Below are positions 11,814 through 35,974 of a stretch of DNA of 35,974 nucleotides, in pieces (within the stretch, counting starts at the first letter, position 1; every line of letters begins with the position of its first letter). The DNA is taken from assembly GCA_016763995.1 (NCBI GenBank), contig JAESST010000008.1:1-35974 (forward strand). The letters run 5' to 3'. The DNA is from Flavobacteriales bacterium. Its GTDB lineage: Bacteria; Bacteroidota; Bacteroidia; Flavobacteriales_E; Vicingaceae. The notes under the pieces are model-generated. The model worked only from the letters and a program-made list of their open reading frames with translations, searched no databases and had not been told where the DNA came from. The position numbers and the translations under genes are program-made.

Positions 11814-11855
11814 ATTGAGACCGTAACAACGATTCCAATTTAGTTCTGATAAACA

Positions 11856-11890
11856 AAAAGGCTGTCTAAAGTAAGTTTAGACAGCCTTTT
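11856..11890. terminator. Bidirectional intrinsic terminator
   Basis: A perfect 15-bp stem (AAAAGGCTGTCTAAA at 11856-11870, TTTAGACAGCCTTTT at 11876-11890) with a 5-base loop lies between two converging genes. The A- and T-rich stem ends make it usable from both directions. Confidence 0.92.
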
Positions 11891-11913
11891 ACATTTAAAA
11901 AAAACAAGAATAA

Positions 11914-12654
11914 TCAAATACGGTTTATTTTTTCTGCCAAAGAAAGAAAAACAACTGCTCGTTGTCCTTTACTAATACCTAATTCTATCTTATTGGAAAT
12001 AAACACACTGCCTCCATTTTTCTTTGTATAAGCTTGAATATGTCTCATATTTACGACATAGGAACGGTTAATTTTCAAGAAATCCTCTTCAGGTAAACAA
12101 GTACAGCTGTGTTTTAAATTTTTAGACAGGATATAAGCCTTCTCTTCTGTAAAAACTTTAGTATAACTCCCTTCTGCTTTTAAATAAAGGATATCGTTTG
12201 TGCTTATTATTTTATTAACTCCTTTCTCTTTTACAGCAATTCTTTCTGTGCAATCATCCGCTCTAACAGTGCTACCTTTCATTTTTACGATTCGCACAAT
12301 GGTAGTTTCTACAGCCTCTACAAATGCAAGCCGATCAATGGGTTTTAATAAATAGGCCAATGCTTTATTTTTATAGGCCTCAATTGCATAATTGGCATAG
12401 GCTGTTATAAATATCACCTCAAAACTCCTGTTGGGAAGCAAGCCCAAAAACTCCATTCCTGTTAAGTTGGGCATATTTATGTCTAAAAACACAAGATCCA
12501 CCTTTTCGTCTTTCAAATATTGAAGCGCCTGCATTGGCTGTTGAAACTTTGCCTTCACTTCTATTTCCTCTCCAAAAAACTGATTTACATAATGCCCCAC
12601 TAATTCTAACGCATTTAATTCATCGTCTATAATAACAGCAGTTACTTTTCCCAT
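11914..12654 (-). CDS. LytTR-family response regulator
   Basis: A 246-residue two-domain regulator. The receiver domain (about 1-120) has the acidic pair Asp10-Asp11, the phospho-acceptor Asp58 in LVFLDINMP, Thr84 in IFITAY and Lys104 in LLKPID. The LytTR DNA-binding domain (about 140-246) has IISTNDILYLKAEGSYTKVF and FLKINRSYVVNMRHI. It lies five bases after the stop of the histidine kinase gene on the same strand, so the two form a cognate operon. LytTR regulators bind short direct repeats upstream of target promoters. Targets are unknown, with neighbouring surface-protein genes as candidates. Confidence 0.95.
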   Translation of the reverse strand: MGKVTAVIIDDELNALELVGHYVNQFFGEEIEVKAKFQQPMQALQYLKDEKVDLVFLDINMPNLTGMEFLGLLPNRSFEVIFITAYANYAIEAYKNKALAYLLKPIDRLAFVEAVETTIVRIVKMKGSTVRADDCTERIAVKEKGVNKIISTNDILYLKAEGSYTKVFTEEKAYILSKNLKHSCTCLPEEDFLKINRSYVVNMRHIQAYTKKNGGSVFISNKIELGISKGQRAVVFLSLAEKINRI

Positions 12655-22155: not shown

Positions 22156-22689
22156 ATGAACAACCCTTGGCACGATGTAAATATCGGAGACAATGCTCCA
22201 GAAATTGTAACAGGAATTATTGAAATTCCTAGAAATAGTAGAGCAAAATATGAACTAGACAAAGAATCAGGCCTTTTGAAATTGGATCGAGTCTTATACT
22301 CTTCTATTAATTACCCTTCGAATTATGGTTTTATACCGCAAACCTATTGCGACGATGATGATCCATTAGATATTTTAGTGCTATCGCAAGTAGACATTGT
22401 TCCTATGTGCTTAATCGAAGCAAAACCAATTGGTGTTATGCGTATGATGGATGAAGGTGAAATGGATGATAAGATTATTGCTGTTGCATTACATGATATG
22501 AGCGTTAGCCACATTAATGATGTTTCTGAATTACCTGCACATTCATTTAAAGAATTAAGAAGCTTTTTCGAAGACTATAAAAAGTTAGAAAATAAGGAAG
22601 TAATCGTAGAAGATTTTCAAGGTAAAGAGGTCGCACATGAAGTAATTCGCCAGAGCATGCTAGATTATAAGAAATTGATGAATAATTAA
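22156..22689 (+). CDS. ppa: Soluble inorganic pyrophosphatase
   Basis: A 177-residue family I pyrophosphatase that hydrolyses pyrophosphate to two phosphates in the cytosol. The metal-binding signature DDDPLDILV is at residues 67-75, with [24 protein letters not shown] and [15 protein letters not shown] before it. Length and motifs match bacterial enzymes. It has its own promoter and terminator, so it is monocistronic, converging on the nqr operon. Confidence 0.97.
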
Positions 22690-22715
22690 TCCTCAATTTC
22701 CAATTATAAACAAAC

Positions 22716-22747
22716 AAAAAAGAGCCGCTAATTAGCGGCTCTTTTTT
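22716..22747. terminator. Bidirectional terminator shared by ppa and nqr
   Basis: GAGCCGCT (22722-22729) pairs with AGCGGCTC (22734-22741). A6 before and T6 after extend the stem and give a U-tract in either direction. The loop is AATT. It lies between the ppa stop and the nqrF stop. Confidence 0.93.
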
Positions 22748-22770
22748 ATATCGTGATATTTCCCATTTAC

Positions 22771-28914: not shown

Positions 28915-30255
28915 ATGAAAAAGTCTCTTTTATTAATTCTATCATCATTCATTGTAGCTCTCAACCTTTATTCTTCAAAGTTTTTAGATAGCAATTCTCC
29001 AGAAAGCTTTGCCGCTAAAAAAGAACCAAGGCAAGAAGATTCGGAAGAGGGAGTACTTAAATATAGAGACCATACTTATAAGGAGAACATTAAAACTGCT
29101 CAGCTCTATCGCAAAGGAGATGCACTTTCTTTTCCTATTCTCTTTTTAGGAGGCACAGATCAACTTGAATTGCATTTTGACGACTTAAGTAATGATTTTC
29201 AGATCTATTCCTATTCTATTGTTCATTGCAATGCCAATTGGGAACCTTCAGGATTAACAGAAACTGAATATTTAACTGACTTCATGTACGGATACATTGA
29301 AGACTATCAATATTCTTTTAATACGTTGATTCCTTACATTCATTACAAAGTTGAACTCCCAAACAACCAAGTTCGCTTTAAACTATCTGGCAATTACCTC
29401 GTGAAAGTTTATGCCAACAATAATGAAGAAGATTTATTCTTGACTCGAAGATTTTATGTAGTAGAAAAAAAGATCACCATAAAATCAAGTATTAGAATGG
29501 CCACTTTGGCGAGGTTTAGAGACTACAAACAAGAAGTCGACTTCACATTAAATCACAACAATTACCCTATACAAGACCCATACTCTCAATTAAAAGTTGT
29601 TATTTCTCAGAATAGAAGATGGGACAATGCCATCACAGATTTAAAGCCATTATTTATTAAAACACCTGAATTGGTCTACAATTATGAAGACAAAAACCTC
29701 TTTGATGGAGGAAATGAATTCCGATTCTTTGAAACTAAGAACCTAAGATATCAATCGATGAATGTGGATGGCATACAAATTATGGGAGGAAAAACTCATG
29801 TATTTATATTACCCGAAGAACCCCGTTCATTTAAACGATATTATTTTCAACCTGACATTAATGGGAAAAGATTGATCACCCGTGAGAATAGCCCATCATC
29901 TGATAAAGAAGCGGACTATATGGTTACCCATTTCACTCTTAAAAGAGAAACACCCTTACCGGGAGGAGATTTGTACCTATTTGGTGAACTAAGCGATTGG
30001 GAGTTTAAAAAAGAGTTCAAAATGGAGTATGTCGAAATAAATGGAGCCTATACATTGACAACACAATTAAAACAAGGGTACTATAATTATAATTATGCTT
30101 TCCTACCAAATGGGTCAACTACAGGAGACTTATCGCCGATTGAAGGCACTCACTCTGAAACCAGTAATGAATATTATATCTTCGTTTACCATCGACAAAA
30201 TGCAGAGATTTATGATCGCTTAGTAGGATTTGAAATCAAAAAATCTAATGAATGA
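28915..30255 (+). CDS. Type IX secretion system plug protein (DUF5103 family)
   Basis: A 446-residue protein with a signal peptide (KKSLLLILSSFIVALNLYSS). It matches the T9SS plug family: RDHTYKENIKTAQLYRKGDALSFPILFLGG, LELHFDDLSNDFQIYSYSIVHCNANWEPSGLTETEYLTDF, YQYSFNTLIPYIHYKVELP, LTRRFYVVEK, then two more beta-sandwich regions ending in YYIFVYHRQNAEIYDRLVGF. The plug closes the periplasmic side of the SprA channel of the T9SS. This agrees with the T9SS sorting domain on the protein at 9930. It is divergent from nqrA and followed by apaG after 33 bases. Confidence 0.88.
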   Translation: MKKSLLLILSSFIVALNLYSSKFLDSNSPESFAAKKEPRQEDSEEGVLKYRDHTYKENIKTAQLYRKGDALSFPILFLGGTDQLELHFDDLSNDFQIYSYSIVHCNANWEPSGLTETEYLTDFMYGYIEDYQYSFNTLIPYIHYKVELPNNQVRFKLSGNYLVKVYANNNEEDLFLTRRFYVVEKKITIKSSIRMATLARFRDYKQEVDFTLNHNNYPIQDPYSQLKVVISQNRRWDNAITDLKPLFIKTPELVYNYEDKNLFDGGNEFRFFETKNLRYQSMNVDGIQIMGGKTHVFILPEEPRSFKRYYFQPDINGKRLITRENSPSSDKEADYMVTHFTLKRETPLPGGDLYLFGELSDWEFKKEFKMEYVEINGAYTLTTQLKQGYYNYNYAFLPNGSTTGDLSPIEGTHSETSNEYYIFVYHRQNAEIYDRLVGFEIKKSNE

Positions 30256-30288
30256 TTTTTGAATTCTATTTTTAATTAATATTGTTCT

Positions 30289-30675
30289 ATGCCAGCATTT
30301 CTAACAGACAAGGTTAGTGTAAAAGTTAAGCCCAGCTATGAGGCTGCACATTCGTCTCCTGCTAAACATGAATATTATTTCAGTTACTCCATTCAAATTT
30401 CAAATGAGGGAAATTCTGCTATTCAACTATTAAGCAGGCATTGGTTTATTTTCGACTCAAATGGACAATACTCTGAAATTAAAGGAGAGGGTGTTCTTGG
30501 AGAGCAGCCTATTATTCATCCAAATCAAACACATGCTTACCAATCATTCTGTCATTTAAAAAGCGACATAGGAATGATGTGGGGAACTTATTTAATGAAG
30601 ATTGTTGATACAGGAAAACTCTTTGAAGTAAGCATTCCAGAATTTCAGATGATTACCCCAATGAGGTTGAATTAG
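30289..30675 (+). CDS. apaG: ApaG domain protein
   Basis: A 128-residue protein with an immunoglobulin-like ApaG fold. It shows VSVKVKPSYEAAHSSPAKHEYYFSYSIQISNEGN, LLSRHWFIFDSNG, the glycine motif GEGVLGEQPIIHPNQ, and MWGTYLMKIVDTGKLFEVSIPEF. Length and motif order match ApaG. The family was linked to Co2+ resistance in enterobacteria, but its molecular role is unsettled. Probably co-transcribed with the plug gene. Confidence 0.93.
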   Translation: MPAFLTDKVSVKVKPSYEAAHSSPAKHEYYFSYSIQISNEGNSAIQLLSRHWFIFDSNGQYSEIKGEGVLGEQPIIHPNQTHAYQSFCHLKSDIGMMWGTYLMKIVDTGKLFEVSIPEFQMITPMRLN

Positions 30676-30801
30676 TTAAACTATAACCTGGCTATCGTTG
30701 TTGTTGTTTCATACGCTTTAAGCAAATAAAAACTTACCCCTTCGCTTTTATTCTAAAAAAATAAAAATTCATGCTTTGCGTTTTCTAGTGAAAAAATTAA
30801 A

Positions 30802-30809
30802 TAGTTTTG
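30802..30809 (+). promoter_or_regulatory. trp operon -7 promoter box (TAGTTTTG)
   Basis: An exact TAnnTTTG box with TTTG at 30775-30778 as a candidate -33 element, 23 bases upstream. Transcription would start near 30815, only a few bases before the first leader peptide ATG at 30819, so the first leader would be nearly leaderless. Confidence 0.75.
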
Positions 30810-30818
30810 TACTAACAA

Positions 30819-30863
30819 ATGAACAATGCAATTACATATACTTGGTGGTATCACGTTAATTAA
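30819..30863 (+). CDS. trp leader peptide 1 (Trp-Trp)
   Basis: A 14-residue reading frame, MNNAITYTWWYHVN, ending in TAA. Two adjacent Trp codons (30843-30848) in so short a frame, right after a promoter and before a terminator and the trp operon, are the hallmark of a trp attenuator leader peptide. When charged tRNA-Trp is scarce, a ribosome would stall there. It is too short for automatic gene finders. Confidence 0.88.
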   Translation: MNNAITYTWWYHVN

Positions 30864-30868
30864 CGAGA

Positions 30869-30910
30869 GAAGCTGAGCTATATAAAAAATAGAAAAAAAA
30901 GACTCGCTTC
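30869..30910 (+). promoter_or_regulatory. Antiterminator of trp attenuator 1
   Basis: GAAGC (30869-30873) and GAG (30875-30877), with T30874 bulged, can pair with CTC-GCTTC (30903-30910), the 5' arm of terminator 1. This 8-bp alternative fold excludes the terminator. The segment begins 21 bases after the second Trp codon, within reach of a ribosome resting on the leader stop codon. A convincing 1:2 stem was not found. Confidence 0.65.
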
Positions 30911-30928
30911 AAGCGGGTCTTTTTTTTT
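30893..30928 (+). terminator. trp attenuator 1 terminator
   Basis: GACTCGCT (30901-30908) pairs with AGCGGGTC (30912-30919) with one G-T pair and a 3-base loop. It is flanked by A8 and followed by T9 at 30920-30928. It lies 37 bases after the first leader stop, within the transcript of the trp operon. Confidence 0.9.
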
Positions 30929-30938
30929 GCCATAAATT

Positions 30939-31031
30939 ATGATGATAGAACAAAACATAACACTGAATGCCTACAATACTGCAAGTTATTGGTGGTGGTA
31001 CTTTTTTCACAAAAACGAAGAGAATTGCTAA
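30939..31031 (+). CDS. trp leader peptide 2 (Trp-Trp-Trp-Tyr-Phe-Phe-His)
   Basis: A 30-residue reading frame starting at tandem ATG codons (30939, 30942). Its core is ASYWWWYFFHK, with three Trp codons at 30990-30998 followed by Tyr-Phe-Phe-His. It lies between terminator 1 and terminator 2. The aromatic run is far above chance and matches a second attenuator leader. It lacks its own visible promoter, so it is expressed only on read-through of terminator 1. The core resembles leader 1 (Y-T-WW-Y-H), which suggests a duplicated attenuator. Confidence 0.86.
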   Translation: MMIEQNITLNAYNTASYWWWYFFHKNEENC

Positions 31032-31072
31032 TGCTATAATTTGAATATCAAATCCTAAAAAGCCTGCTTCTC
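30981..31072 (+). promoter_or_regulatory. Competing stems of trp attenuator 2
   Basis: Three segments can be drawn. Segment 1 (GCAAGTT, 30981-30987) pairs with segment 2 (AATTGC, 31023-31028) around one bulged G. Segment 2 as GAGAA-TT-GC (31020-31028) can instead pair with GC-TTCTC (31066-31072), the 5' arm and loop of terminator 2. A ribosome stalled on the Trp codons at 30990-30998 would cover segment 1 and leave segment 2 free, favouring antitermination. A ribosome at the stop (31029-31031) would cover segment 2. The geometry is that of classical trp attenuation, though the pairs are short. Confidence 0.6.
31039..31053 (+). other. Small hairpin before trp terminator 2
   Basis: ATTTGA (31039-31044) and TCAAAT (31048-31053) form a 6-bp stem with a 3-base ATA loop, directly upstream of terminator 2. 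It may act as a pause site that keeps polymerase and leader ribosome in step, which is a guess. Confidence 0.4.
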
Positions 31073-31087
31073 GCAGGCTTTTTTTTT
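31057..31087 (+). terminator. trp attenuator 2 terminator
   Basis: GCCTGC (31062-31067) pairs with GCAGGC (31073-31078), loop TTCTC, extended by A5 (31057-31061) and T9 (31079-31087). It ends eight bases before the trpE ATG, so besides terminating it could mask the trpE ribosome-binding region in read-through transcripts. Confidence 0.92.
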
Positions 31088-31095
31088 GCTCCAAT

Positions 31096-32508
31096 ATGAA
31101 AACAACATTAAAAACAACATCGATCCAATCCTTAGCCGATATGCTAACTCCAGTGAGTGCATATTCTAAACTGAGAGACCATTACTCAAATACATTATTA
31201 CTTGAAAGTGCTGATTTTCATAGCATACAAGACAGTAAAAGCTTTATTTGCTTAGAGCCAATCTCAGGCTTCGAAGCTAAAGGATTACAATACAATATCG
31301 AATCAATAGATGGAACTATTACTTATAATACTGCAAATATATCAGCAGACGTTTTTAAAGCTTTTACCGAATTCACGCAGCAATTTGAAGTAAATAATGA
31401 GCCGCATTCCTCATCTGTCTGTGGTTTGTTTGGATACAGCTCTTTTGAGGCTGTTCAATACATGGAAGACATTCTTCTTGATAATCCCACTCAACCAACA
31501 AAAGATAACCCAGATTTAAAATACCAGCTTTTCCGCTACGTGTTAGAATTCGATCATTTTAAAGATGTGCTAACGCTCACTGAAAACCATGTGAAAGAGA
31601 ATACCAATTCCAACAAAGGCTTAAAACGAATAATGGAATTGCTAAAAGGAAATCATTCATCCAGCTTTCCCTTCTCAATTAATGGAGAAGAGGAATCTAG
31701 TATTACAGATGACACTTACAAGGGATTTATTGAGAAAGGAGTTGCTCATTGTCAAAGAGGCGATGTGTTTCAAGTGGTTCTTTCCAGAGAATTCAAGCAA
31801 GCATTTAAAGGAGATGAATTTAATGTATACCGCAGTTTACGAAGCATTAATCCTTCTCCCTATCTCTTCTATTTCGATTATGGAAGTTTTAAAATTATGG
31901 GCGCATCTCCAGAATCACAATTAAAAATTGAAGACGGAGTTGCCCACATCAACCCGATTGCTGGCACTGCTTTAAGAGGAGGAAATGTAGAGGAAGATGC
32001 GCTAAAAGCAAAAGAATTACTCAATAATCCCAAAGAGAAAGCAGAGCATGTAATGTTAGTCGACTTGGCTAGAAATGACATGAGCAAATACGCTGATGAA
32101 GTTTCAGTTTCTGCCTATGCAGAAATTCAATATTTCTCCCATGTCATTCACATGGTAAGTAAAGTAAGTGGTCTATTGAGTTCTAAGAATGATCAGCTTA
32201 ATGTTTACGCAAGTACCTTTCCTGCTGGAACATTAAGCGGTGCACCCAAATACAGAGCATTGCAAATCATCAACGAATGTGAACCACATCAGAGAAATTT
32301 TTATGGTGGAAGCATTGGTTTCATTGGTTTCGATGGAAGCATTAATAAAGCAATCATCATTCGATCCATCCTGAGCAAAAATCACACACTTACCTATCAA
32401 GCAGGAGCAGGGGTTGTAATCGACAGCAGCCCAGAAGGAGAATTACAAGAAGTAAATAATAAACTAGCAGCCATTCGAATGGCCATTAAAAATGCAGAAG
32501 CCTTATGA
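31096..32508 (+). CDS. trpE: TrpE, anthranilate synthase component I
   Basis: A 470-residue enzyme that makes anthranilate from chorismate with ammonia supplied by TrpG. The Trp feedback-binding motif LLES is at residues 35-38, so end-product inhibition is expected. The chorismate-binding core carries GDVFQVVLSREF, INPSPYLFYFDYG, GASPE, PIAGTALRGG, DLARNDMSKYA and FPAGTLSGAPKYRA. First gene of the operon, eight bases after terminator 2. Overlaps trpG by four bases (ATGA). Confidence 0.97.
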   Translation: MKTTLKTTSIQSLADMLTPVSAYSKLRDHYSNTLLLESADFHSIQDSKSFICLEPISGFEAKGLQYNIESIDGTITYNTANISADVFKAFTEFTQQFEVNNEPHSSSVCGLFGYSSFEAVQYMEDILLDNPTQPTKDNPDLKYQLFRYVLEFDHFKDVLTLTENHVKENTNSNKGLKRIMELLKGNHSSSFPFSINGEEESSITDDTYKGFIEKGVAHCQRGDVFQVVLSREFKQAFKGDEFNVYRSLRSINPSPYLFYFDYGSFKIMGASPESQLKIEDGVAHINPIAGTALRGGNVEEDALKAKELLNNPKEKAEHVMLVDLARNDMSKYADEVSVSAYAEIQYFSHVIHMVSKVSGLLSSKNDQLNVYASTFPAGTLSGAPKYRALQIINECEPHQRNFYGGSIGFIGFDGSINKAIIIRSILSKNHTLTYQAGAGVVIDSSPEGELQEVNNKLAAIRMAIKNAEAL

Positions 32509-33089
32509 AAATTGGTGTTATAGACAACTACGATAGTTTCACACTCAACTTAACTTACTTGTTAAAACAAGAAGGGATAAGCTTTGAGATTTATAGAAAT
32601 GATAAAATAAGTGCACAACAAGCGGCCGAATTCGATGGCCTATTACTCTCTCCTGGGCCTGGACTTCCTGAAGAAGCAGGAAACCTAATGAGCATCATTC
32701 AAAGCTGCTTTCAAAAAATACCCATACTTGGAGTTTGTTTAGGACATCAGGCCATCGCAGCTCATTTTGAATCAGGGTTGAGCAATTTAAAAAAGGTTTC
32801 TCATGGAATCGAAAAATCAGTTCTTCTCACCGAAAGAAAGAGTCGACTTTTTTCAGGAATCTCAAATAAATTTCAAGCAGGTCACTACCATTCTTGGATT
32901 GTAGATCAGTATCATTTATCGCCAAAATTAGAAGTGACAGCTATTGATGAGAATCGAGAAATAATGGCTTTAGAGCATCATGAATTACCCATTTATGGCG
33001 TGCAATTCCATCCGGAAAGCATTATGACAGCAGAAGGGCCAAGAATCATTAAAAACTTTATTGGAATTTGTAAAGAACACATCAAATGA
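32505..33089 (+). CDS. trpG: TrpG, anthranilate synthase glutamine amidotransferase
   Basis: A 194-residue class I amidotransferase. NYDSFTLNL near the N-terminus, SPGPGLPEEAGN, catalytic Cys78 in GVCLGHQAIA, and His169/Glu171 in VQFHPESIMT complete the triad. It supplies ammonia to TrpE. Could also serve aminodeoxychorismate synthase, but its place in the trp operon favours anthranilate. Overlaps trpE and trpD by four bases each. Confidence 0.96.
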   Translation: MKIGVIDNYDSFTLNLTYLLKQEGISFEIYRNDKISAQQAAEFDGLLLSPGPGLPEEAGNLMSIIQSCFQKIPILGVCLGHQAIAAHFESGLSNLKKVSHGIEKSVLLTERKSRLFSGISNKFQAGHYHSWIVDQYHLSPKLEVTAIDENREIMALEHHELPIYGVQFHPESIMTAEGPRIIKNFIGICKEHIK

Positions 33090-34075
33090 ACGAACTACTA
33101 GAATACTTATTTGCTAACGGGCAGTTGACAAAAACACAAGCCAAGGAGGTATTGGGCAGAATTTCGGAAGGCCAATACAACTCGAATCAAGTGAGCGCTT
33201 TTTTAACCGTATTTCGCATGAGAGACATCAGCTTAGATGAGCTCATTGGCTTTAGAGATTGCTTAAAGGAACGTAGCAATAAAGTAGATCTTAGCGATTT
33301 CGACCCCATTGATTTATGCGGAACGGGAGGAGATGGAAAAGACACCTTTAACATTAGCACTTTGGCTTCTTTTGTTACTGCTGGTGCAGGAATAAAAGTT
33401 GCAAAACATGGAAATTATGGAGTAAGTTCTTCCTGTGGCTCCTCCAACGTGATGGAGTTTTTAGGGTATAAATTCACCAATGATCATGATCGATTAAAAG
33501 GACAAATCGAACAAAGTGGAATTTGCTTTTTACATGCACCTCTTTTTCACCCTGCCATGAAAGAAGTCGCTCCCATTCGAAGGAGTCTAGGAGTGCGCAC
33601 TTTCTTTAATATGCTAGGACCATTGGTAAATCCATCCTCACCACAAAAGCAAGTGGTGGGAGTGTCTTCTCTTCATCTACAACGCTACTACAAATATATT
33701 TTTGAGCAATCGACTGCCGCTTATCGTATTGTACATTCTTTAGATGGATATGATGAAATAAGCCTCACCAGCCATGCAATGGTAATTAGTGAAGAGGAAG
33801 ACAGAAGAATGACCCCTTCTGACTTTAGTTCAACAAAAATAAATGGAGAGAAACTCTATGGTGGAAAAACAGTTGCATCCTCAGCTAAAATCTTCATCGA
33901 TATTCTAGAAGGCGTAGGAAGCCCTGAACAAATTGCAGCTGTTGCTGCCAACGCTTCATTGGCTATACACTGTTGTAATCCTCAAAAATCATCTGAAGAA
34001 TGTGTGAACCTAGCAATAGAGTCATTAGAAAGCGGGAAAGCCTTAAATGCATTTAAAACCTTAATTGAATCATGA
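33086..34075 (+). CDS. trpD: TrpD, anthranilate phosphoribosyltransferase
   Basis: A 329-residue enzyme that joins anthranilate to PRPP. DLCGTGGDGKDTFNISTLAS holds the phosphate-binding glycine loop, KHGNYGVSSSCGSSNVMEFLG and APLFHPAMKEVAPIRRSLGVRTFFNMLGPLVNP are family signatures. It is separate from trpG, unlike the fused gene of enterobacteria. Four-base overlaps join it to trpG and trpC. Confidence 0.97.
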   Translation: MNELLEYLFANGQLTKTQAKEVLGRISEGQYNSNQVSAFLTVFRMRDISLDELIGFRDCLKERSNKVDLSDFDPIDLCGTGGDGKDTFNISTLASFVTAGAGIKVAKHGNYGVSSSCGSSNVMEFLGYKFTNDHDRLKGQIEQSGICFLHAPLFHPAMKEVAPIRRSLGVRTFFNMLGPLVNPSSPQKQVVGVSSLHLQRYYKYIFEQSTAAYRIVHSLDGYDEISLTSHAMVISEEEDRRMTPSDFSSTKINGEKLYGGKTVASSAKIFIDILEGVGSPEQIAAVAANASLAIHCCNPQKSSEECVNLAIESLESGKALNAFKTLIES

Positions 34076-34875
34076 GCATATTAGAACAAATCATTCAAGA
34101 TAAAAGAGCTCAAGTAGCCCTCAATAAGTCATTAAAGCCTCTAAAATTATTAGAAAGAAGCATATATTATGAAACCAAAGGTGTTTCCATGAAAACCTAT
34201 CTCCAACGAGATGACAAAACTGGAATTATTGCAGAAATAAAACGTTCGTCTCCGAGTACAGGTTTGTTCAAACACAAGCTCGATGTGAGTCAGCTTAGTG
34301 TAGGTTATATGCAAGCAGGGGCAACGGCATTATCGGTATTAACCGACCCAAGCTATTTCAAAGGAAGTGATGCAGACTTAAGCATTGCAAGAAAGTACAA
34401 CTACTGCCCCATTTTGCGAAAAGAATTCATTATTGACGAATATCAGATAGTAGAAGCAAAAAGCATTGGAGCAGATTGCATTTTATTAATTGCCGCTTGC
34501 CTGAGTCCTCAACAATGCAAGGCATTAGCTGCATTTGCCAAATCATTAGGGCTTGAAGTTTTGTTGGAAGTACATGATCAATCTGAAATAGAAAGTCACT
34601 TAAATGAACACTTAGACCTAGTTGGAGTGAACAACAGAAACCTTCATGATTTCTCTACCAACATTCAACAAAGCATCAAATTGGCTCCTCATATTCCCGA
34701 CGAATTTATTCGCATTAGTGAAAGTGGAATTAGTAGCGCTGATCAAATTATAAGCTTAAAGAAACATGGTTTTAAGGGTTTTCTGATTGGCGGTTACTTC
34801 ATGAAACAAGCTCATCCTGAAAAGGCTTGCAAAAAACTCATTGACAATTTAATACTACAAGACCATGAAAGTTAA
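34072..34875 (+). CDS. trpC: TrpC, indole-3-glycerol phosphate synthase
   Basis: A 267-residue TIM barrel that closes the indole ring. It begins MSILEQIIQDKRAQVALNK, then IIAEIKRSSPSTG, GATALSVLTDPSYFKGS, ILRKEFIIDEYQI, DCILLIAACLS, LEVLLEVHD, GVNNRNLHDF and RISESGIS, the ordered barrel motifs of the family with catalytic Lys and Glu residues. It is not fused to trpF. Overlaps trpF by 11 bases. Confidence 0.97.
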   Translation: MSILEQIIQDKRAQVALNKSLKPLKLLERSIYYETKGVSMKTYLQRDDKTGIIAEIKRSSPSTGLFKHKLDVSQLSVGYMQAGATALSVLTDPSYFKGSDADLSIARKYNYCPILRKEFIIDEYQIVEAKSIGADCILLIAACLSPQQCKALAAFAKSLGLEVLLEVHDQSEIESHLNEHLDLVGVNNRNLHDFSTNIQQSIKLAPHIPDEFIRISESGISSADQIISLKKHGFKGFLIGGYFMKQAHPEKACKKLIDNLILQDHES

Positions 34876-35497
34876 AATATGCGGTATGAAACATGCCCAA
34901 AACATTCAAGATTTGAGCGCTTTAGCAATTGATTTTATGGGCTTCATTTTTTATCCTAACTCTAAACGATGTGTAGAAAACGAGAGCTTATCAATTTCCA
35001 TAAAAAGGTTAAATCCAGTCATTCAAAAAGTAGGAGTGTTTGTCAATCAGCCTGTTGAATACGTTCTTAAGACATGCCAACTACTCCAACTCCAATATAC
35101 TCAACTACATGGAAATGAAACGCCTAATGTATTAGAGCAAATAAAAAAAGCTAAAATTGGGACAATCAAAGTATTTAGTCCGACTCAAGAATTTCAATGG
35201 AAAGATGTAGAACCTTTTATTTCGGGTAGTGATTATTTTTTATTCGATACTCCAACAATTCTTTACGGTGGTAGTGGTCAACAATTCGATTGGAACTTAT
35301 TGAGCAACTATCCTTATAATGTTCCATTCTTTTTAAGTGGAGGAATCGGCCCCGACGATATTAAATCCATTTCTAAGCTTTCATTTCCTCAATTGGCAGG
35401 AATTGATGTGAACAGTGGAGTAGAAATAGAACCTGCACTAAAGGATATTTCCAAAGTAAAAGCAATCTTAAAACAAGTAAGAAATGAGCATATTTAG
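34865..35497 (+). CDS. trpF: TrpF, phosphoribosylanthranilate isomerase
   Basis: A 210-residue TIM barrel that isomerises phosphoribosylanthranilate. The N-terminal KVKICGMKH has the catalytic Cys6, followed by [60 protein letters not shown] and GIDVNSGVE. Start and end overlap trpC by 11 and trpB by 14 bases. Confidence 0.95.
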
Positions 35498-35974
35498 TGT
35501 AGATCAAATGGGTTATTATGGAATGTTTGGAGGAGCTTACATTCCTGAAATGTTGCATCCCAACATCCAACAATTAAAATCCAATTATCAAAAAATAATC
35601 GACTCTAAAGAATTCCAACTAGAATTTAAAAGCCTTCTTAAAGACTATGTTGGACGCCCCACACCGCTCTATTATGCAAAGCGTTTGAGCAAACATTATG
35701 GGGCTTCTATTTATTTAAAACGAGAAGATCTATGCCATACCGGTGCGCACAAAATCAACAATGCTTTAGGCCAAATAATATTGGCGAAAAAGATGAATAA
35801 AACACGCATTATTGCAGAGACTGGAGCAGGCCAACATGGTGTTGCTACAGCTACAGCCTGTGCCCTAATGGGAATGGAATGCATCGTATACATGGGCGAA
35901 AAAGACATAGAGCGTCAGTCGCCAAATGTGAATAGAATGCGAATGCTAGGGGCCAAAGTTGAACCAGTTTCTTC
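35484..35974 (+). CDS. trpB: TrpB, tryptophan synthase beta subunit (3' end outside window)
   Basis: The first 163 codons of trpB from ATG 35484, inside the end of trp[24 protein letters not shown] is the usual start, then [34 protein letters not shown] with PLP lysine Lys90, and [28 protein letters not shown]. It condenses indole with serine. The window cuts it at about 40 percent of its usual length. trpA is expected next but is not in view. Confidence 0.96.

Follow-up and report, generated by a model that had tools for sequence, protein, structure and literature searches.

Two putative Trp-sensing attenuators arranged in series upstream of trpE in a member of the Bacteroidota

In the E. 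coli trpL leader (Rfam family RF00513), trpE is preceded by a short open reading frame with adjacent Trp codons, by segments that form alternative 1:2, 2:3 and 3:4 helices, and by an intrinsic terminator. Modelling has assigned to such trp attenuators a high basal read-through and a low sensitivity in comparison with his attenuators (PMC1183508), and a survey of 2010 gave leader-peptide systems as then known only in the Proteobacteria and Actinobacteria, with hisS of the Firmicutes added (PMC2965389). In Sinorhizobium meliloti the trp leader RNA (rnTrpL, encoding peTrpL) is leaderless, starts at the ATG and, when attenuated, is released by itself and acts in trans (PMC7298713). Two sensors in one leader RNA are known from the mgtCBR operon of Salmonella, whose tandem leader-ORF attenuators respond to different signals, ATP and proline, and have been described as singular (PMC3641672). 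Meanwhile, trp genes in the Bacillota are controlled by two or three T-boxes in series, from which a pseudo-cooperative response is expected (PMC12452182). In the openly readable papers searched we found no description of tandem leader-peptide attenuators for the same amino acid, nor of trp leader peptides in the Bacteroidota.

Here we analyze a stretch of 35,974 nucleotides, which we refer to as the window and which is contig 78 of a metagenome-like Bacteroidota draft genome (519 contigs, 4.5 Mb). Its trp leader has the elements of trpL but differs from it in having two units in series, a Bacteroidota-type promoter and a near-leaderless first leader. Like mgtCBR it carries a pair of putative leader-ORF attenuators within a single leader RNA, but both of its regulatory codon runs are Trp, and so it is not a two-signal device of the mgtCBR type. 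The likeness to the tandem T-boxes lies in two sensors of the same signal, Trp, each with its own platform, placed in series before trp genes. A T-box binds tRNA directly, however, whereas the sensor in the window would be the translating ribosome, and the T-box covariance model had no match at gathering in the window. With S. meliloti the locus shares a leader that starts at or close to the ATG and an attenuated RNA that would be released by itself; for action in trans, which has been shown there, the genome studied here offers only a hint, a second copy of the leader with no gene behind it.

The trp operon and its promoter

The trp operon sits downstream of apaG and runs along the forward strand in the order trpE-trpG-trpD-trpC-trpF-trpB. 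Its first structural gene, trpE (31096–32508), matches the Pfam families Chorismate_bind (1.2e-78) and Anth_synt_I_N (1.3e-22). The remainder, from trpG to the start of trpB, occupies positions 32505–35974, where the contig ends; trpG was recognized by a GATase match and the start of trpB by a PALP match, and trpD, trpC and trpF were named from their own sequence and gene order, without a domain scan. Contamination of the contig was ruled out: a block of nqrA, a type IX plug gene and apaG (with the trp operon, window region 28915–35974) is conserved in five congeners (L168–L172), with plug identities of 70–76%. In these congeners, however, the block is not followed by a trp operon, and none of them yielded a TrpE that reached the threshold applied; the operon is therefore particular to the window's species within the genus, through gain here or loss elsewhere. 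The TrpE of the window is sister to that of UBA7430 (L045), with tree support of 100/99, and stands apart from the other TrpE sequences of the family, a placement that is consistent with acquisition by transfer but is no proof of it.

The promoter consensus of the Bacteroidota consists of TTTG and TAnnTTTG elements (PMC7366714). An exact match to the latter, TAGTTTTG at 30802–30809, provides the −7 element; it is the sole exact match between positions 30701 and 31100, and the one exact match between apaG and trpE. A TTTG at 30775–30778, 23 nt before the −7 element, can be read as a candidate −33 element. The first leader peptide starts 9 nt past the −7 element, and the same arrangement recurs in other Bacteroidota: TAnnTTTG was found within 40 nt upstream of the start codon in 55 of 89 other trp leaders, as against 1.7% of control windows, mostly at a distance of 4–10 nt from the start codon. 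The position of the motif in these trpE regions (for example, L045, L050, L005 and L111) implies leaderless or near-leaderless leader peptides. Because only about 3.7% of the 5′ untranslated regions of B. thetaiotaomicron are shorter than 10 nt (PMC7366714), near-leaderless trp leaders, with start sites placed from the motif, look like a special trait.

Anatomy of the two units

Downstream of this one promoter follow, in order, leader 1, terminator 1, leader 2, terminator 2 and trpE. Leader peptide 1 (MNNAITYTWWYHVN, then stop) is encoded at 30819–30863, with its two Trp codons at 30843–30848, inside segment 1. Segment 2 of the unit (GAAGCUGAGCUAUAU, 30869–30883), whose pairing portion GAAGC begins at 30869, 20 nt past the last Trp codon, can pair with either the Trp-codon region or the 5′ arm of terminator 1. 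The hairpin and U-tract of that terminator span approximately 30892–30928, as indicated by folding and by matches to Rfam and to R1, a covariance model that we built from 59 single units at other loci with the window's genome left out. Unit 1 folded more stably than all 200 of its shuffles (z −4.7), and its 2:3 duplex of −11.5 kcal/mol was equalled by 0.3% of shuffled arms. When folding was carried out with a ribosome on the Trp codons and the 3′ arm of the terminator still unmade, a 2:3 helix of −8.4 to −9.7 kcal/mol formed. The unit scored 52.0 bits with R1 (30831–30929) and, below threshold, 32.6 bits with the Trp_leader family RF00513 (30837–30926). The latter score falls short of the gathering cut-off of 41 bits, which neither unit reached; unit 2 was not among the RF00513 matches listed, and a scan of the whole window found no Rfam family at gathering.

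Leader peptide 2, (M)MIEQNITLNAYNTASYWWWYFFHKNEENC and then stop, begins at one of two alternative ATGs, 30939 or 30942, and ends at 31031. Its three Trp codons (30990–30998) again lie within segment 1. They are followed after 21 nt by the pairing portion GAGAA (31020) of segment 2 (GAGAAUUGCUAAUGCUAUAAUU, 31020–31041), a segment that takes part in both the 1:2 and the 2:3 folds. Terminator 2 has its hairpin at 31057–31083 and a U-tract extending to 31087, as judged by folding and by R1, which scored the unit at 52.8 bits (30978–31089). The fold of unit 2 was weaker than that of unit 1 (z −2.0, with 5 of 200 shuffles equally good), and its 2:3 duplex, at −8.6, beat 93% of shuffles, 7% being equally good. 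When the ribosome occupied the Trp codons and the terminator 3′ arm was unmade, the 2:3 helix came to −6.3 kcal/mol; when it occupied the first of these codons, with the shorter footprint, an alternative hairpin (−6.4) prevailed over that helix. Leader 2 starts 16–17 codons before its Trp run, compared with 7–10 in nearly all other units, and neither a promoter nor a recognizable initiation signal was found at its start.

Both units thus have the makeup of a classic trp attenuator, in which trp genes are preceded by a short leader ORF that contains neighboring Trp codons. Both can also, in silico, fold mutually exclusive 1:2, 2:3 and 3:4 helices that end in an intrinsic terminator, the 2:3 helix of unit 2 being weak; in each, the 1:2 hairpin joins the Trp-codon region to segment 2 downstream. 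Placing the ribosome at the stop codon abolished the 2:3 helix or reduced it to −1 to −3 kcal/mol. In neither unit was the contiguous helix with its own terminator better than with swapped terminators. The two units are related to each other (alignment score 56, versus 22 ± 4.8 for shuffles), although unit 1 resembles more closely (67.5) the lone unit of UBA7430, the nearest TrpE relative, than it does unit 2. They differ in sequence, which rules out an assembly error. The first-pass annotation of this DNA had described two complete units behind one promoter upstream of trpE, each with its Trp codons about 21 bases before a pairing segment, and the ORFs, Trp runs, terminators, R1 scores and spacings bear that description out. 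From this anatomy we infer that the helices are used, that both leaders are translated, and that the units act in series and respond to Trp. Unit 2 is the less certain of the two, since its antiterminator is weak, its start distance is odd and the tandem is absent from close relatives.

Trp leaders elsewhere and a second copy of the double leader

We collected the regions upstream of trpE in 29 relatives and on 80 public genome contigs, some genomes being present under two names, and counted units with one script in the 108 regions, the window included, that had at least 150 bases upstream. Exactly one unit of Trp leader plus terminator was found in 90 of the other 107 regions, none in 17 and two in no region. 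The 17 follow from a strict rule, and in several of them a unit is in fact present but escaped the script, as in L067, which scores 75.3 bits with R1. In 89 single units the start codon lies, nearly always, 7–10 codons before the Trp run, and the terminator 52–92 nt past it. Segment 2 was more complementary to its own terminator than to swapped ones (mean 5.67 versus 4.26 contiguous base pairs; Wilcoxon p 5e-14, uncorrected for kinship). The single attenuators of other Bacteroidota (for example, L045, L111 and L005) share with the window the leader ORF, the Trp run, the antiterminator, the terminator and a TAnnTTTG beside the start codon, but have one unit where the window has two. Thus, whereas single attenuators had been credited to proteobacteria at first pass, the host belongs to the Bacteroidota, where a single Trp-leader attenuator appears, from sequence comparison, to be a nearly universal and conserved regulator of trpE in the genomes sampled. 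The view that two units in tandem are unusual is upheld by the same counts. Conservation of the Trp runs, which had been named as a test, holds across the phylum for single units but not for the tandem, of which the searched genomes yielded no orthologue and the window's own genome only a paralogous copy.

A covariance search across relatives had also been proposed. R1 matched both window units at an E value of about 1e-8; its false matches in relatives reach 47.8 bits, and therefore the margin at 52–53 bits is modest and much weight falls on the in-frame Trp ORFs, the promoter and the trpE context. In a search of 395 genomes of the class, under filters that lose weak matches, the only R1 pair less than 1 kb apart among the matches listed was that of the window. 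Within the family, 46 genomes were searched, 15 of them with TrpE, and the readable upstream regions displayed one unit or none that was recognized. The pattern TGGTGG-T5-TGGTGG was uninformative in the 395 genomes, giving counts similar to those of a reversed-pattern control. Weaker R1 matches in congeners lacking TrpE, where inspected, were ends of atpG or of other genes followed by terminators, and the other matches in the window's own genome at 30–35 bits, where inspected, were plain terminators. In several genomes of the family (L192, L193, L194 and L195) the end of atpG (IVGGAEAL) with its terminator mimics R1 at 41–48 bits. Two further stretches of the window, 11850–11939 (reverse strand) and 22664–22751 (forward strand), score 20–23 bits, below plain terminators elsewhere in the genome. 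Looking for stacking at the his operon as well, we noted a strong terminator hairpin (CCCGTCTGA...TCAGACGGG, with a T-run) just upstream of hisG (L156 1–98, contig G000:C45); it is likely part of a his attenuator, of which the contig, beginning 98 bases before hisG, displays the terminator only.

The double leader occurs a second time in the same genome (G000:C200:3334-3567; L002 1471–1740), 84% identical over 246 query bases. This copy keeps the promoter, leader 1 (MNNTITYAWWYRVNNERS, then stop) with its Trp run, terminator 1, the WWWYFF run and an identical unit 2 segment 2; another hairpin replaces terminator 2, and leader 2 lacks an in-frame ATG. It comes after an aminotransferase gene absent from the congeners, and no gene on the same strand follows it up to a convergent gene. 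We read it as a dispersed and partly decayed duplicate. That it might instead be a stand-alone RNA, peptide or both acting in trans, for instance on the trp operon, seems improbable.

Probable series action and its alternatives

The best explanation of the locus is probably that two ribosome-mediated, Trp-sensing transcription attenuators follow each other in series on a single transcript. In this reading, RNA polymerase would start at the single promoter, and a ribosome would begin translating leader 1 very close to the 5′ end of the RNA. When Trp-tRNA is plentiful, the ribosome would pass the Trp codons and cover segment 2, allowing terminator 1 to form; when it is scarce, the ribosome would stall on the Trp codons, segment 2 would pair with the 5′ arm of the terminator, and the polymerase would continue. 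Internal initiation would then allow leader 2 to be translated, and the same choice would be made anew at terminator 2, this time with three Trp codons. Expression of the operon would approximate the product of the two read-throughs, with a lower basal level and a steeper response than from one unit. It had been suggested that termination probabilities multiply in such an arrangement and that a steeper response or two thresholds would result. It is the read-through probabilities that multiply, so that log-sensitivities add. In an illustrative race model, with assumed rates and a leak of 15%, the range was 34-fold for the pair as against 5.6-fold for unit 2 alone, and the maximal log-gain was 2.0 as against 0.9 and 1.1 for the single units. 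The steeper response is thus reproduced, together with a wider range, and two separate thresholds did not appear.

We counted in favor of series action that the double arrangement recurs in the genome, and against it that the in-frame ATG of leader 2 is gone from the second copy, that the tandem was seen in no other genome searched and that the window comes from a metagenome-like draft. Part of this evidence bears on the foremost alternative, that only one unit works and the other, most likely unit 2, is a relic of duplication or a constitutive, leaky terminator. The broken leader 2 of the copy, the odd start distance and weak antiterminator of unit 2, and the fact that the sister lineage by TrpE, UBA7430, has one unit only, most like unit 1, all speak for this alternative. 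Yet the ORF of unit 2 is intact and retains its three Trp codons, the unit keeps a 1:2 hairpin and a strong terminator, its segment 2 is the same in both copies, and an unregulated terminator of such strength ahead of trpE would be costly; we consider a single working unit unlikely.

Much less probable is a second promoter near 30922 that would yield a shorter mRNA carrying unit 2 only. The sequence TTTTTTTG at 30922–30929 departs from TAnnTTTG at one position and ends 9 nt before the ATG at 30939, the usual spacing, but the mismatch hits the A of TA, no TTTG lies at the −33 distance, and strings of this kind are to be expected at any U-tract with a terminal G, another example lying at 31081. 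Least probable of all is that unit 2 integrates Trp with Tyr and Phe supply, as its WWWYFF run and the WWWYFL of the single-unit relative L111 might suggest, for the Tyr and Phe codons come after the Trp run, so that a ribosome stalled on them would be closer to segment 2, and a Tyr/Phe run is absent from most other leaders.

If two attenuators do act in series upstream of trpE, serial ribosome attenuators for one signal would be a natural route to lower leak and a steeper response, in parallel with the tandem T-boxes of the Bacillota, and the idea that stacked sensors give pseudo-cooperativity would become testable with the translating ribosome as the sensor. Should the second copy prove to act in trans, the bacterium would combine attenuation in two stages in cis with a leader RNA that works in trans. 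Finally, our survey suggests that, among the Bacteroidota sampled, trpE is by default controlled through near-leaderless Trp-leader attenuation.
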